Positions 5,544 through 37,633 of a stretch of DNA of 64,000 bases are shown piece after piece (the first letter of the stretch is position 1; each line of letters opens with the position of its first letter). The notes beneath the pieces are model-generated. The model had not been told where the DNA came from. It did not search any database and saw nothing but the letters and a program-made list of their open reading frames with translations. Location of the stretch: assembly GCA_949878435.1 (NCBI GenBank), contig CATLAK010000017.1, positions 1 to 64,000 on the forward strand, written 5' to 3'. The position numbers and the translations under genes were made by a program. Source of the DNA: an uncultured Lachnospiraceae bacterium (GTDB taxonomy: Bacteria > Bacillota > Clostridia > Lachnospirales > Lachnospiraceae).

Positions 5544-5741
5544 TACTCTAGATACCTCTTCATCGGATAGCGCCCCATCAGTAACTGATGACAGTCATAC
5601 AGTTATTCACTGCATGCCCAAGAATCTGATTCCAGTGTATTCAAACTCTTTCGGCGTATTTTCCTTTCATTTTTCTTCCACTGTGCCTGTCACATCCAAA
5701 AAATTACTCATAAAACACGCAACCTCTACCTCTAAATCCTG
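5512..5741 (-). promoter_or_regulatory. Lysine riboswitch (L box) upstream of dapA
   Basis: Read on the minus strand, the leader contains the conserved L-box blocks in order: GGTAGAGGTTGCG, ATGAGTAA, GAAAAATGAAAGG, CGCCGAAAGAG, GGGCATGCAGTGAATAACTG, ACTGTCATC and GGGCGCTATCC. The outer helix P1 pairs GGTAG (plus 5726-5730) with CTATC (plus 5566-5570). The aptamer is followed by an intrinsic terminator and then dapA. The arrangement matches the transcription-attenuating lysC/dapA leaders of Firmicutes: high lysine should switch dapA-dapB off. Confidence 0.94.
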
Positions 5742-6487: not shown

Positions 6488-7117
6488 CTACTCTTCGACC
6501 AGCTCCAGCTTGCTCACGGAAACCTCATATGCGATCCTCTTTTCGGCATCCTCGTCAGACAGCCTCTTCATATATTCACGGCTCTGTATCCTGCCCCATA
6601 TCTCACATCTGGTTCCCACTGAAAAGTTACTTGCAAATCTTGCGTTCCTTCCCCAGCAGATACAGGGGATATAATCACTCTTTCCGTATGGTCTGTTCAC
6701 GGCAAGCAGTAGATCAGCAATCTCCCTCCCAAGAGGCGTCTTCCGGTAAATCGGCTCTTTGCAAATGTAACCGTCCAAGTAGATTTGATTGGTCTTAGAA
6801 CTCTCCGGCGTTTCTTCCACAAACTCGATTTCCCTTGCAAATACGGAAAGCACCAGCCTGTTCTTGCGCTCCTCATGGCGGTTATAAGAGCGGAACTGCC
6901 CCTGGACCATGATATTCAGCCCCTTATAATCCTCCTCCACATCAATCAGGCGCTCAGATACCATCAATGGAATTATATCACTGGAATCACTTAACCTTGG
7001 TACGTTGACATCTACCATATAAAAGCCTTCCCCGAAAATTTCATGGCTGAATACAAAATCACTTACGACTTCCCCCATGATTACCACCTGGTTGTTTTCA
7101 ATTACCTTATCTGTCAT
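6488..7117 (-). CDS. Single-stranded DNA-binding protein-like, two OB regions
   Basis: The C-terminal half, from about residue 110, has the typical OB-fold string GREIADLLLAVNR, then YIPCICWGRNARFA and EIWGRIQSREY, as in SSB/PriB-like proteins of Clostridia. The N-terminal half (VIMGEVVSDFVFSHEIFGEGFY) looks like a second, diverged OB unit. The usual acidic SSB tail ending DDIPF is absent; it ends KLELVEE. Length 209. It probably binds single-stranded DNA as an accessory rather than the main SSB. The start follows a GGAG-like site. Terminator not clear. Just upstream of it begins the large palindrome region. Confidence 0.7.
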   Translation of the reverse strand: MTDKVIENNQVVIMGEVVSDFVFSHEIFGEGFYMVDVNVPRLSDSSDIIPLMVSERLIDVEEDYKGLNIMVQGQFRSYNRHEERKNRLVLSVFAREIEFVEETPESSKTNQIYLDGYICKEPIYRKTPLGREIADLLLAVNRPYGKSDYIPCICWGRNARFASNFSVGTRCEIWGRIQSREYMKRLSDEDAEKRIAYEVSVSKLELVEE

Positions 7118-7240
7118 TTTAGTTCTCCCTTCTTACTCCTTAAGAATTTTTTCCTGTCACGTATTACTATTTATATGAAAAAAATTTGAAATCAGAACTG
7201 TCATTTATCGCGAAGTTCGACATAAGGAGAGGGGGAGGAG

Positions 7241-7643
7241 GGATTCAGGGATGGGGAAGTTTGATGGGAGCAGAACAGGGCGGGGATGGGCAGGCGGATG
7301 CAGCATGGGACAGAGGAGGGCTACGGGCAGGCGGCGGTGTATAATATCGTTTCAAGTCTCCTCTTAAAATTGGATTTCACTAACAGAATGTATATATGCA
7401 CTTCAAGGCGGTCGGGTCGGATCCAGGCGGCATCCGTGCCGCTTGGCTCCTAAAATCGCCATCCATGGCGATTTTACCCTGGATTTTCCAACATTCTGTA
7501 AGTGAAATTGCCAATTTTTCGCAAAGACTTGAAACGATATTATACACCGCCGCCTGCCCGTAGCCCTCCTCTGTCCCATGCTGCATCCGCCTGCCCATCC
7601 CCGCCCTGTTCTGCTCCCATCAAACTTCCCCATCCCTGAATCC
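7241..7643. repeat. Giant nested palindrome, copy 1
   Basis: Bases 7241-7359 and 7525-7643 are perfect reverse complements over 119 bp. The inner 15 bp of the arms are shared with copy 2; the outer 104 bp are unique to this copy. The interior loop carries further nested stems (see the core element). The arms are G-rich on the left and C-rich on the right. Frames that look like proteins here are mirror images of one another and not genes. Such a long perfect palindrome with a non-coding centre is rare in bacterial DNA. Confidence 0.9.
7345..7539 (-). mobile_element. ~195-bp core element, copy 1 (MITE-like)
   Basis: Bounded by 15-bp terminal inverted repeats (TATCGTTTCAAGTCT / AGACTTGAAACGATA). 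Inside, AAAATTGG pairs with CCAATTTT, ATTTCACT.ACAGAATGT pairs across the element, and two hairpins follow: AAAATCGCCAT/ATGGCGATTTT, and a GCGGCA/TGCCGC stem. The same element occurs inverted at 7941-8136 with scattered substitutions. No transposase is in the window. It could be a non-autonomous mobile element or a structured RNA; strand is set so that copy 2 reads +. Confidence 0.7.
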
Positions 7644-7820
7644 TTCCAGCCCTCCACTCTTTTGCCAGCCTTCCGTCCAATATCTTCGTATGTATAGTCT
7701 GACATAGTATGATATAGTGTAAGTCATAGTAATATAATGCAATTTGATATAAATTTACAAGGCTTAGCTAAATTCTGGATGTGAAAAATGTAACGGCTTG
7801 TAGGAAATCCGGCGAAGCCG
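7644..7820. other. AT-rich spacer between the two palindromes
   Basis: AT-rich, with loosely repeated TAGTATGATATAGT-like words around 7690-7740. No gene, promoter or terminator could be supported. Confidence 0.4.
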
Positions 7821-8255
7821 GAGGCGGCAAAAGGGGCAGTGGGCAGGGCGGATTCCTATGTTTGCTTTGTTAAGGGGGCGCTGATACAGCAGCAGTGTCC
7901 AGGGGACAGGATCAGACGGCAGGCAGGGGACGGCATATGGTATCGTTTCAAGTCTCTGCGAAAAATCGGCAATTTCACTTACAGAATGTGGAATCACCTA
8001 GGGTAAAATCGCCATGGATGGCGATTTTAGGAGCCAAACGGCATGGATGCCGTCTTGGCTCCGACCCGACCGTCTTGAAATATCTATATACATTCTGTTA
8101 GTGAAATCCGATTTTGAGAAAAGACTTGAAACGATACCATATGCCGTCCCCTGCCTGCCGCCTGATCCTGTCCCCTGGACACTGCTGCTGTATCAGCGCC
8201 CCCTTAACAAAGCGACATAGGAATCCGCCCTGCCCACTGTCACTTTTGCCGCCTC
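7821..8255. repeat. Giant nested palindrome, copy 2
   Basis: Left arm 7821-7955 and right arm 8122-8255 are reverse complements over about 134 bp with only a few mismatches and one indel (for example ATGTTTGC against ATGTCGC). The outer ~120 bp are unrelated in order to the arms of copy 1, although both are rich in GGGCAGG-type words. The shared core sits in the middle. No gene is supported. Confidence 0.88.
7941..8136 (+). mobile_element. ~195-bp core element, copy 2 (MITE-like)
   Basis: Same 15-bp terminal inverted repeats as copy 1 but in opposite orientation. Compared with copy 1 read on the same strand, several differences fall on both sides of a stem and keep pairing: AAAATCGG/CCGATTTT here against AAAATTGG/CCAATTTT there, and ACGGCA/TGCCGT here against GCGGCA/TGCCGC there. 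That pattern suggests selection on a folded form. Confidence 0.7.
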
Positions 8256-8302: not shown

Positions 8303-8405
8303 AAAACAGTTTGAAATGTAATGAGGATACTATTTGAGTTGAAGCAGTTTACTGCGATGATATGGAGGTAAGCGCGCAGGAAGCAGCGCAGAAATGAGGA
8401 GAAAT

Positions 8406-10256
8406 ATGAATCAAAAACGAGAAGATGTAAGAAATATAGCCATCATTGCCCATGTTGACCACGGAAAAACGACCCTGGTGGACGAGCTTCTTAAGCAAAG
8501 CGGCGTTTTCCGCGAAAATCAGGCAGTTGCAGAGCGTGTCATGGATTCCAATGATATTGAACGGGAAAGAGGAATCACGATTCTTTCCAAGAACACAGCC
8601 GTAACCTATAAAGATACCAAGATCAACATCATCGACACCCCCGGACATGCAGATTTCGGCGGCGAGGTGGAACGGGTCTTAAAAATGGTAAACGGCGTCA
8701 TCCTGGTCGTAGATGCTTTCGAGGGCGCCATGCCCCAGACCAAGTTTGTATTAAGGAAGGCACTTGAATTAAAGCTTCCTGTCATTGTGTGTGTAAATAA
8801 GATCGACCGGCCGGAAGCCCGTCCCGATGAAGTCGTGGATGAAGTGCTGGAACTCTTCCTTGAACTGGATGCAGACGAAGCGCAGCTTGATTGCCCCTTT
8901 GTATTTGCTTCCGCCAAGACAGGTACCGCCAGCCTTGATGCAAATGAGCCCGGCACCAATATGATTCCGTTGTTTGAAACGATTCTTGACTATATCCCCG
9001 CACCTACGGGTGATCCGGATGCAGGCACGCAGGTGCTGATCAGTACCATTGACTACAATGAGTATGTAGGAAGAATCGGTGTGGGCAAGGTGGATAACGG
9101 CTCCATCAAAGTCAATCAAGAGGTCGTCATCGTCAACCACCATGATCCTGATACGTCAAGAAAAGTAAAAGTCAGCAAACTTTATGAGTTTGACGGTTTA
9201 AATAAGGTAGAAGTCACACAGGCGGGAATCGGTTCCATCGTGGCGATTTCCGGCATCTCCGACATCCATATCGGCGATACCCTCTGCTCTCCTGAAAACC
9301 CTTCCCCAATTCCTTTTCAGAAGATTTCAGAACCTACCATTGCCATGCATTTCATCGTCAACGACTCTCCGCTTGCCGGGCAGGAAGGCAAGTATGTGAC
9401 AAGCCGCCACTTAAGAGACCGGCTGTTCCGTGAACTTAATACAGATGTTTCCCTCCGTGTGGAAGAGACGGATACCACCGAAGCCTTTAAGGTATCAGGC
9501 AGAGGCGAACTGCATCTGTCTGTACTGATTGAAAATATGCGCAGGGAAGGCTACGAATTTGCCGTGAGCAAAGCGGAAGTTCTCTACAAGACCGATGAAA
9601 ACGGGAAAAAACTTGAGCCAATGGAACTTTGCTATATCGATGTGCCTGAAGAATTTTCCGGCTCCGTCATTGAAAAGTTAAGCCAGCGAAAGGGCGAACT
9701 GCAGAATATGGGCGCTGCATCCGGCGGGTATACGCGCCTTACCTTTTCCATTCCTTCCAGAGGATTAATTGGTTACCGGGGCGAGTTTATGACCGATACC
9801 AAAGGAAACGGCATCATGAACAGCATTTTTGACGGTTACGGTCCCTATAAGGGTGATATTCAGTACCGCAAACAAGGGTCTTTGATTGCATTTGAAGCCG
9901 GAGAGGCAATCACCTACGGTTTATACAACGCACAGGAGCGCGGAACCCTCTTCATCGGTCCCGGTGAAAAAGTCTATTCCGGCATGATTGTAGGACAGAA
10001 CGGAAAGGGAGAAGATATCGAATTGAATGTGTGCAAAAAGAAACAGCTCACCAATACCCGCTCTTCCAGCGCCGACGAAGCCCTCCGCCTGACGCCTCCC
10101 AAAATTTTAAGTTTGGAACAGGCGCTTGAATTTATTGATACAGACGAGCTTTTGGAAGTCACGCCTAAGTCACTTAGAATCCGCAAAAAGATTCTCGATC
10201 CAACCATGAGAAAACGCGCTGCAATGCGTTCAGCTTCCCTTTCACAAAGCAACTAA
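8406..10256 (+). CDS. typA: Translational GTPase BipA/TypA
   Basis: Ribosome-associated GTPase of the EF-G/LepA class that acts in stress and low-temperature ribosome function. From ATG 8406 it is 616 residues, the family length. G1 AHVDHGKT (16-23), the switch region around DSNDIERERGITI, G3 DTPGHADF and G4 NKIDRPEARP are intact, and the C-terminal BipA region (FSIPSRGLIGYRGEF, then GNGIMNSIFDGYGPYKG) is diagnostic. ATG 8406 is preferred over ATG 8394 because GAGGAGA lies between them at the right distance. Single-gene unit with its own promoter and terminator. Confidence 0.97.
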   Translation: MNQKREDVRNIAIIAHVDHGKTTLVDELLKQSGVFRENQAVAERVMDSNDIERERGITILSKNTAVTYKDTKINIIDTPGHADFGGEVERVLKMVNGVILVVDAFEGAMPQTKFVLRKALELKLPVIVCVNKIDRPEARPDEVVDEVLELFLELDADEAQLDCPFVFASAKTGTASLDANEPGTNMIPLFETILDYIPAPTGDPDAGTQVLISTIDYNEYVGRIGVGKVDNGSIKVNQEVVIVNHHDPDTSRKVKVSKLYEFDGLNKVEVTQAGIGSIVAISGISDIHIGDTLCSPENPSPIPFQKISEPTIAMHFIVNDSPLAGQEGKYVTSRHLRDRLFRELNTDVSLRVEETDTTEAFKVSGRGELHLSVLIENMRREGYEFAVSKAEVLYKTDENGKKLEPMELCYIDVPEEFSGSVIEKLSQRKGELQNMGAASGGYTRLTFSIPSRGLIGYRGEFMTDTKGNGIMNSIFDGYGPYKGDIQYRKQGSLIAFEAGEAITYGLYNAQERGTLFIGPGEKVYSGMIVGQNGKGEDIELNVCKKKQLTNTRSSSADEALRLTPPKILSLEQALEFIDTDELLEVTPKSLRIRKKILDPTMRKRAAMRSASLSQSN

Positions 10257-37283: not shown

Positions 37284-37329
37284 AATAAAAAAGATAACTT
37301 CTCCCTATTTGTTTAGAGACGAAGTTATC
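37284..37329 (-). terminator. T-box terminator hairpin
   Basis: On the minus strand GGATAACTTC pairs with GAAGTTATCT and is followed by T6. The left arm overlaps the antiterminator side that contains the T-box sequence. Confidence 0.9.
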
Positions 37330-37540
37330 CGTGGTTCCACTCTACTTAGAGGCATGCTGCCTCCGCTTATTGCACGTAACGTGTGAATACGTGTCATGCT
37401 ACTTCATTCGCAGGACCTGCTCCCGGATGCACTTCTATGATCCTCATTCCAGGAATGCTTCCAGCCGCCGGCATTCCCTCTCTGCGCAAATGGCATCAAA
37501 ATCTGATGCTGGACCATATACTCTTTCCGTTCCTTGCATT
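37284..37540 (-). promoter_or_regulatory. T-box riboswitch, cysteine-specific, upstream of cysE
   Basis: On the minus strand the leader has Stem I (GGAACGGAAAGAGTA, then TATGGTCC pairing with GGATCATA), the distal AGAGAGGG and GCTGGAA elements, the specifier loop GAAGTGCA with TGC (Cys) at 37429-37431, the T-box AGAGTGGAACCACGG and a terminator. Uncharged tRNA-Cys should pair with the specifier and the T-box bulge and allow transcription of cysE. Confidence 0.93.
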
Positions 37541-37633
37541 TATCTTATATTCTACTGATGACTTGAAAACAGAAAATCTTTTTACATTATCAGCATATTC
37601 AAAAGGGATGGTTTTGTCAACTGGATTTTGAAA

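Follow-up and report, generated by a model that had tools for sequence, protein, structure and literature searches.

Palindromes around the TwoAYGGAY RNA motif in Lachnospiraceae: a putative MITE-like family whose arms are probably kept symmetrical by copying of DNA

The TwoAYGGAY motif (RF01731) entered the literature as a candidate RNA and, in the accessible text of a 2010 survey, was not scored as cis-regulatory (PMC2864571). The available portions of a 2014 study discuss it as an sRNA that might bind CsrA in Clostridia and note a further external stem of poor conservation (PMC4333381). Inverted repeats whose arms change together have been described in other settings. Excerpts of two reports attribute arm homogenization and loop inversion in yeast genes to template switching (PMC8604942) and extend template switching to RNA genes (rRNA and microRNA), compensatory stem changes included (PMC8794818). 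Partial texts likewise describe concerted arms in palindromes of the mammalian X chromosome (PMC8981503) and of Nematomorpha mitochondrial genes, the latter citing active maintenance of inverted repeats in bacterial genomes (PMC6649704). Within the open-licence literature, no palindromic MITEs of the kind described below were found in Lachnospiraceae, and the accessible parts of that literature yielded no link between TwoAYGGAY and transposons. Here, two large palindromes are examined that likely belong to a palindromic MITE-like family with the RNA motif as its loop, in which one arm is copied onto the other, the loop inverts, and cores may also be exchanged.

The window is a stretch of 64,000 nucleotides from an uncultured Lachnospiraceae bacterium (GCA_949878435.1, contig CATLAK010000017.1, positions 1 to 64,000). 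Both palindromes sit between divergent genes, one at 6488–7117 (−, 209 aa), which we take to be ssb-like and which anchors the orthologous site, and one at 8394–10256 (+, 620 aa), presumably typA. Copy 1 comprises an outer arm (7237–7359), a core (7360–7524, −), and a second arm (7525–7647) that mirrors the first at 122 of 123 positions. A 173-bp spacer (7648–7820, 38% GC) separates it from copy 2, in which arms at 7821–7955 and 8122–8255 (130 matches, 4 mismatches, and 1 gap) enclose a core at 7956–8121 (+). Covariance model searching identified both cores as full-length RF01731 matches (model positions 1–168) scoring 87.8 bits in copy 1 and 86.4 bits in copy 2, above the gathering score of 43. 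An inverted-repeat search, which together with arm alignment delimits the arms, retrieved 7232–7373/7511–7652 for copy 1 (142 nt, 94%) and, for copy 2, 7864–7969/8108–8213 (106 nt, 95%) and 7814–7861/8215–8262 (48 nt, 90%). Outside the Rfam core, the arms thus measure 123 bp in copy 1 and 135/134 bp in copy 2.

These data bear out an earlier note on this DNA, which had described two giant palindromes sharing an inner element in opposite orientation (80–83% match, with RF01731 on the − strand in copy 1 and the + strand in copy 2) and differing in their outer arms. The copy 1 arms, called perfect mirror images there, are mirror images with one mismatch in 123 bp. The mid-arms of copies 1 and 2 have no BLAST match to each other, and matches to other fetched arms do not exceed 27 bp, besides the outer 26 bp common to copy 2 and its orthologue. 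The predicted RNA folds of copies 1 and 2 lie 30 and 36 standard deviations below those of shuffled sequences, with none of 100 shuffles as low. The note had also held that no protein gene explains the palindromes, and the only ORF of at least 80 aa overlapping them is one of 100 aa (7403–7705, −) that runs from copy 1 into the spacer; no transposase gene was found inside them among ORFs of this size. A lysine riboswitch (5560–5736, −, 129.3 bits), also present at 14 of 18 loci of named relatives and used below as a control for G·U pairs, and a T-box leader (37312–37543, −, 110 bits) were noticed elsewhere in the window.

Both copies are present in the sister species G013. The orthologue of copy 2 lies at the same site (C22:315–477), and the outermost 26 bp of its arm are 96% alike. 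Two differences between the left and right arms of copy 2 are identical in both species. The mid-arms of the two orthologues show no BLAST-detectable similarity, and each is largely palindromic. Copy 1 is split in G013 over two contigs that end inside its arms.

The earlier note had proposed counting copies and asking whether each has mirror-image arms of its own. The genome containing the window (G000; 51 contigs, 3.40 Mb) holds 78 RF01731 matches, 77 of them over the cut-off, and 75 of the 78 have arms, mostly with copy-specific mid-parts; 14 control genomes gave no match. A third copy on the same contig lies 498 bp past the window end (C17:64498–64663, −, 106.4 bits), with arms of 83–85 bp and few k-mers in common with the core of copy 2. 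Judged by the ssb-like protein, Parablautia is among the closest named relatives of this genome. When 60 genomes were searched, comprising 36 of the genus (own included) and 24 of other families, matches were returned in 17, 16 of them over the cut-off and all 17 within the genus. Across Lachnospiraceae, RF01731 was matched in 65 of 397 genomes (own included), above the cut-off in 63; because that search scored no more than six candidates per genome, its copy numbers are lower bounds. Single-genome searches gave 45 matches in G013, 39 in G019, and 49 in G035, and a search across three further genomes gave 8 in G440 (one contig), 25 in G363 (two contigs), and 1 in G378 (one contig). Plasmid and phage records contained no match to window positions 7940–8140.

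By ORF prediction the copies are mostly intergenic, with 11 and 8 of 192 copies touching the left or right ORF. Among these 192 copies with ORFs on both sides, the left ORF is on the same strand in 81 and the opposite strand in 111, without a clear preference for either. A cis-regulatory leader RNA was considered and rejected, there being no constant position or strand relative to a downstream gene (right ORF: 98 same, 94 opposite). G000 contains nine divergent pairs of copies whose spacers, that of the window included, look unrelated by eye. Between two divergent TwoAYGGAY copies in each of G000, G019, and G035 lies an ORF of 275–299 aa that appears trypsin-like by eye (L031, 1630–2529; L192, 1472–2308; L193, 1499–2326) and adjoins a ribosomal-protein-S20-like gene.

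Arms are a general feature of the family. In G000, G013, G019, and G035, a set from which one of the 49 G035 matches (C41) is missing, the core is immediately bordered by inverted arms of 30 bp or more in 201 of 210 copies, with median lengths of 78–94 bp and a maximum of 200. One fixed arm sequence in all copies would, according to the earlier note, have refuted its reading, but the arms are largely copy-specific: the entropy of G000 arms rises from 0.76 bits in the 10 bp adjoining the core to 1.7–1.9 bits from 30 bp outward, and of 156 mid-arms just 43 are matched over 30 bp or more elsewhere in the same genome. The inner ~30 bp are common to arms of different copies, and the outer ends are common in part of the copies. 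Where stretches of arm are alike, they stand at different distances from the core, shifted by ~40 or 60 bp; in a palindrome, such shifts imply mirrored indels as well. On the RNA strand the 5′ arm is purine-rich (9902 G-C plus A-U cells against 7013 C-G plus U-A cells in the four genomes). A G-A mismatch occurs at the fourth arm pair from the core edge in 43 copies; a tandem G-A in a TwoAYGGAY motif stem is mentioned in the accessible part of a published description (PMC4333381).

The outer boundaries of some copies resemble those of transposons. Direct 8-bp repeats (at least 7 of 8 identical) lie immediately next to the arms in 12 of 201 copies, where random re-pairing of left and right sides predicts 1.7, and duplications matching at 9 or more of 10 bp occur in 4 copies against 0.0 expected. 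The family has two types of ends, GTAACAGTTCAGCC and CAATGTCATTAAG, and the 12 copies with target duplications include both. Searching three genomes for CAATGTCATTAAG retrieved a complete insertion sequence in G019 with these ends and a 10-bp duplication; its 452-aa transposase belongs to the NCBIfam IS4 family (183.5 bits, cut-off 115) and contains the Pfam domain DDE_Tnp_1. CAATG-type ends, identical to the ends of IS4-family elements of the genus, are found on both sides of 5 of 75 copies in G000, 1 of 43 in G013, 7 of 37 in G019, and 9 of 46 in G035, with 10-bp target duplications where these are seen. Elsewhere in the family, the terminus is of the GTAACAG type, accompanied by 8-bp duplications, or is not recognizable.

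Relatives of the G019 transposase were matched in 12 of 37 genus genomes, the closest (82–100% identical) in G019 and G032 and the others at 35–39% identity. Inspection of 11 such loci yielded eight full-length elements with CAATGTCATTAAG or CAATGTCATTTAG ends (one end mismatched in one), seven of the eight having a 9–10-bp duplication and L384 showing none. One further full-length relative among the nine checked, L399, has other ends (CAATGTGGTCAACT) and an 11-bp duplication. A complete IS4 element of this group was found neither in G000, which has two transposase fragments at a contig edge (C33:26–1320; L390, L396) with one CAATGTCATTTAG end, nor in G013, which has no match. IS4-type ends also bound palindromes that lack the RNA core (six examples, at least one a deletion derivative by eye). 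No autonomous partner of the GTAACAG-type ends was found: transposase genes were not evident by eye near GTAACAG sites at 10 inspected of 30 loci, and IS66 was rejected as a source because the sole G000 IS66 match has a different end by eye. Neither terminus type is present in 55 of 75 G000 copies. The termini of the window copies, which are not among the 12 copies with a target duplication, are not recognizable by eye and are best regarded as eroded. Judged by sequence, the family appears to be MITE-like, with IS4-family terminal repeats and 10-bp target duplications in some copies; the earlier note had set a MITE reading aside too early.

Cores and arms seem to have separate histories in two of the genomes, as exchange of cores between copies would bring about. 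Ten G000–G013 pairs were compared: window copy 2 and nine strict orthologues, for which both flanks had to lie no more than 350 bp from the arms. In 9 of them the G000 core is more like a paralogue in its own genome than like its orthologue, and the same holds for the G013 core in 8, one of them by 0.86 to 0.85; two pairs score lower because their core is shortened. Moreover, when cores are at least 95% identical, the arms are nonetheless less than 60% alike in 6 of 18 pairs in G000 and 4 of 5 in G013, chance likeness being 0.48 with a standard deviation of 0.06; other such pairs have alike arms, up to 0.94. G019 and G035 gave no sign of core exchange, with only 2 and 3 core pairs reaching 90% identity. 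The pattern in G000 and G013 is suggestive of conversion among copies or of cores moving on their own, and recent transposition followed by fast arm turnover may be an alternative. A stronger version would make the TwoAYGGAY core a module that moves among palindromes separately from the arms, with hairpin-shaped DNA as the favored acceptor. Under such hairpin-directed conversion or homing, arms would be private to each locus and cores homogenized genome-wide. Near-identical cores within unlike arms and paralogous cores closer than orthologous ones in G000 and G013 prompt this idea; it is nevertheless doubtful, given the few near-identical cores in G019 and G035.

How the arms stay symmetrical can be read from the pairs that deviate. 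The arm cells of the four genomes comprise 16,938 Watson–Crick pairs, 195 G·U, 212 A·C, and 211 others, the last including N positions and the G-A four bases from the core. By comparison, stems of 15 lysine riboswitches from the same organism group contain 127 G·U and 3 A·C. Among 51 copies outside G000, from other members of the genus and from other genera (partial L439 and L446, contig-edge L406 and L407, and four of 34 matches omitted), the 22 with a clear inverted repeat have 38 G·U, 37 A·C, and 103 other mismatches. Selection on RNA would tolerate G·U and reject A·C, and parity of the two thus speaks for symmetry at the DNA level, although near-parity would also follow if all non-Watson–Crick pairs were equally harmful. 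The core hairpins proved unfit as a positive control, and the lysine riboswitch was taken instead: a first count, on a poor alignment, had given 123 G·U and 43 A·C and was discarded, and when both CAYGGATG loops had to be exact, 85 of 210 copies remained, in which hairpin 1 has 1 G·U and 1 A·C while hairpin 2 has 7 G·U and 40 A·C, 35 of the 40 at the fifth position, which is mostly not a pair.

Orthologous copies show both arms changing in step. In the 11 of 11 strict G019–G035 pairs (834 arm pairs), 41 coupled Watson–Crick changes were counted against 1.3 expected if arms change independently, alongside 29 single changes and 2 both-sided changes of other kinds. The coupled changes divide into 23 transitions and 18 transversions (flanks: 304 and 137), and the single changes include 13 G·U and 8 A·C. 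In 7 of the 9 strict G000–G013 pairs, two being dropped for a partner without arms, 501 arm pairs include 61 coupled changes against 3.7 expected and 26 single ones (4 G·U, 7 A·C), and 118 arm positions are missing in both arms against 91 in one. Excesses over the same expectation recur in G000–G019 (28 against 3.0), G000–G035 (25 against 3.1), and G013–G019 (18 against 1.9). Divergence at aligned positions between G019 and G035 is 6.8% and 6.9% in the arms, 6.9% in the flanks, and 4.5% in the core; between G000 and G013, the corresponding values are 16.5%, 15.2%, 14.0%, and 12.3%. Some of the flanking sequence is coding, and the arm values cover the alignable parts. Since arms diverge at flank pace and yet stay mirrored, copying fits better than slow compensation. 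The earlier note's suggestion of a DNA copying process behind the symmetry agrees with this excess of coupled changes and the parity of mismatches.

A single long RNA hairpin, such as a large regulatory or double-stranded RNA whose arms are held together by selection on pairing, would also produce coupled changes. The very stable fold, the membership of the core in a curated RNA family, its slower divergence than the flanks between G019 and G035, and the lead of G·U over A·C among the single changes of that pair all lean this way. We nonetheless hold it to be unlikely, because G·U is not favored in the arms as it is in the riboswitch, aligned arms diverge at flank speed, many coupled changes are transversions, palindromes without the core are equally symmetric by eye, and copies have no orientation bias relative to genes.

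Arm-to-arm copying has a counterpart in the loop, whose inversion the earlier note had proposed to look for and which is seen between orthologues. The core is flipped in 6 of 20 strict pairs of the G019–G035 and G000–G013 comparisons; same and flipped orientations number 8 and 3 in G019–G035, 6 and 3 in G000–G013, 4 and 0 in G000–G019, 4 and 1 in G000–G035, and 3 and 0 in G013–G019. Two flipped G019–G035 cases are clear: the arms are nearly identical and continuous while the flanks beyond them are exchanged, when set in family orientation, the cores agree at 161 of 166 and 161 of 165 positions, and asymmetric bases within ~20 bp of the core move with it, placing the exchange in more distal parts of the arms. 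The third case has outer arms that agree but a diverged core and inner arms. Of the three flipped G000–G013 cases, one has a G013 partner without arms, and the flipped cases of this pair could partly be separate insertions. Loop inversion would be expected as well if a dedicated site-specific recombinase acted on the arms, as in an inverton underlying phase variation. Such a recombinase is very unlikely, given that the arms differ between copies with only the first ~10 bp adjoining the core fairly conserved, that the exchange in both clear cases fell beyond that stretch, that the gene context is not constant, and that the coupled base changes would be left unexplained.

Short-read assemblers might instead have folded or equalized the arms. 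The G013 contigs that stop inside an arm of copy 1, the fragmentation of many assemblies, and the one-contig genome G440, in which just one copy among 7 passes the arm-score threshold, are compatible with this. The same anatomy, however, recurs in four separate assemblies and in 11 of 20 copies of a two-contig genome, the last in particular making an artefact an unlikely source of the palindromes, and orthologous sites hold arms that differ and are still symmetric; we regard folding by assemblers as highly improbable.

Where the arms came from can be asked at sites that lack the element. The ssb/typA gap is 1315 bp in the window and, element-free, 239 bp in G009, 249 bp in G019, 232 bp in G034, and 248 bp in G035. 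Among 30 ssb loci of the genus, 19 others have both genes within 1.5 kb of each other and 212–373 bp apart, and the second gene was not found at 10. Neither arm is present in an alignment of the G035-type site with five other named relatives (L083 is the G035 sequence; a seventh row, L082, is the G013 locus, which holds the element), and none was detected by eye at the sites of G009, G019, and G034. The earlier note had suggested that flanking DNA is copied in inverted form around the element and that empty sites might keep one arm; the empty ssb/typA sites keep neither, indicating that the elements arrived with arms that later changed in concert. Copying of flanking host DNA at each insertion, although it would account for arms that differ between copies and for the scarcity of mid-arm matches within a genome, is therefore scarcely credible, the more so as arms of different copies share their inner ~30 bp and partly their outer ends, and as copy 2 matches its orthologue at the outer arm ends and not in the mid-arms.

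A MITE-like palindromic family with arm-to-arm copying, by contrast, is likely and accommodates these observations as follows. The window palindromes are probably two old copies of a high-copy family whose plan consists of terminal inverted repeats, arms continuing these inward as a palindrome, and the TwoAYGGAY core as the loop. We infer that one arm serves as template for, or recombines with, the other. Candidate routes are intrastrand template switching and recombination between inverted repeats; in the latter, a non-crossover outcome would homogenize the arms and a crossover would flip the loop. Ectopic conversion may, with less certainty, also exchange cores between copies in G000 and G013. 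If arms are copied in this way, a near-perfect hairpin needs no selection on RNA pairing.

This arrangement bears on how RF01731 is understood. The motif, described in 2010 and given no established role in the accessible texts, here forms the loop of a transposon-like repeat, and RNA-based guesses about its function therefore need rethinking. Covariation in its outer stem may stem partly from DNA copying and not from RNA selection. More generally, compensatory changes are not proof of RNA structure, and the ratio of G·U to A·C provides a simple test. With dozens of natural palindromes per genome, mostly with arms of their own, arm conversion and loop inversion in bacteria become measurable from genomes.

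Each part of the system is of a known kind; their combination, its scale, and the light it sheds on RF01731 were not found in print within the open-licence literature. Relative to the RF01731 family, the window cores are full-length matches, placed here in the loop of a dispersed palindromic repeat whose arms are much longer than the Rfam model. In the manner of IS4-family MITEs, the CAATG-type copies have the terminal inverted repeat of IS4-family elements of the genus and, in some cases, 10-bp duplications, and there is no transposase of their own; the differences are a largely copy-specific palindromic interior with an RNA motif in its loop and, in most copies, a different terminus or none that is recognizable. 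Template switching between inverted repeats shares arm homogenization and spacer inversion with this family, but in the accessible texts the reported cases mostly concern short repeats and loops, whereas here arms reach 200 bp and loops ~165 bp, in dozens of copies per bacterial genome. The palindromes of X chromosomes and Nematomorpha have arms that evolve in concert by copying, as here, although the available parts of those reports describe neither transposon ends nor an RNA core. Like REP and REPIN sequences (PMC3116915, as far as its accessible text goes), the elements are dispersed, palindromic, and extragenic and sometimes occur as inverted pairs; unlike them, the present family is much larger and has target duplications and DDE-type ends.
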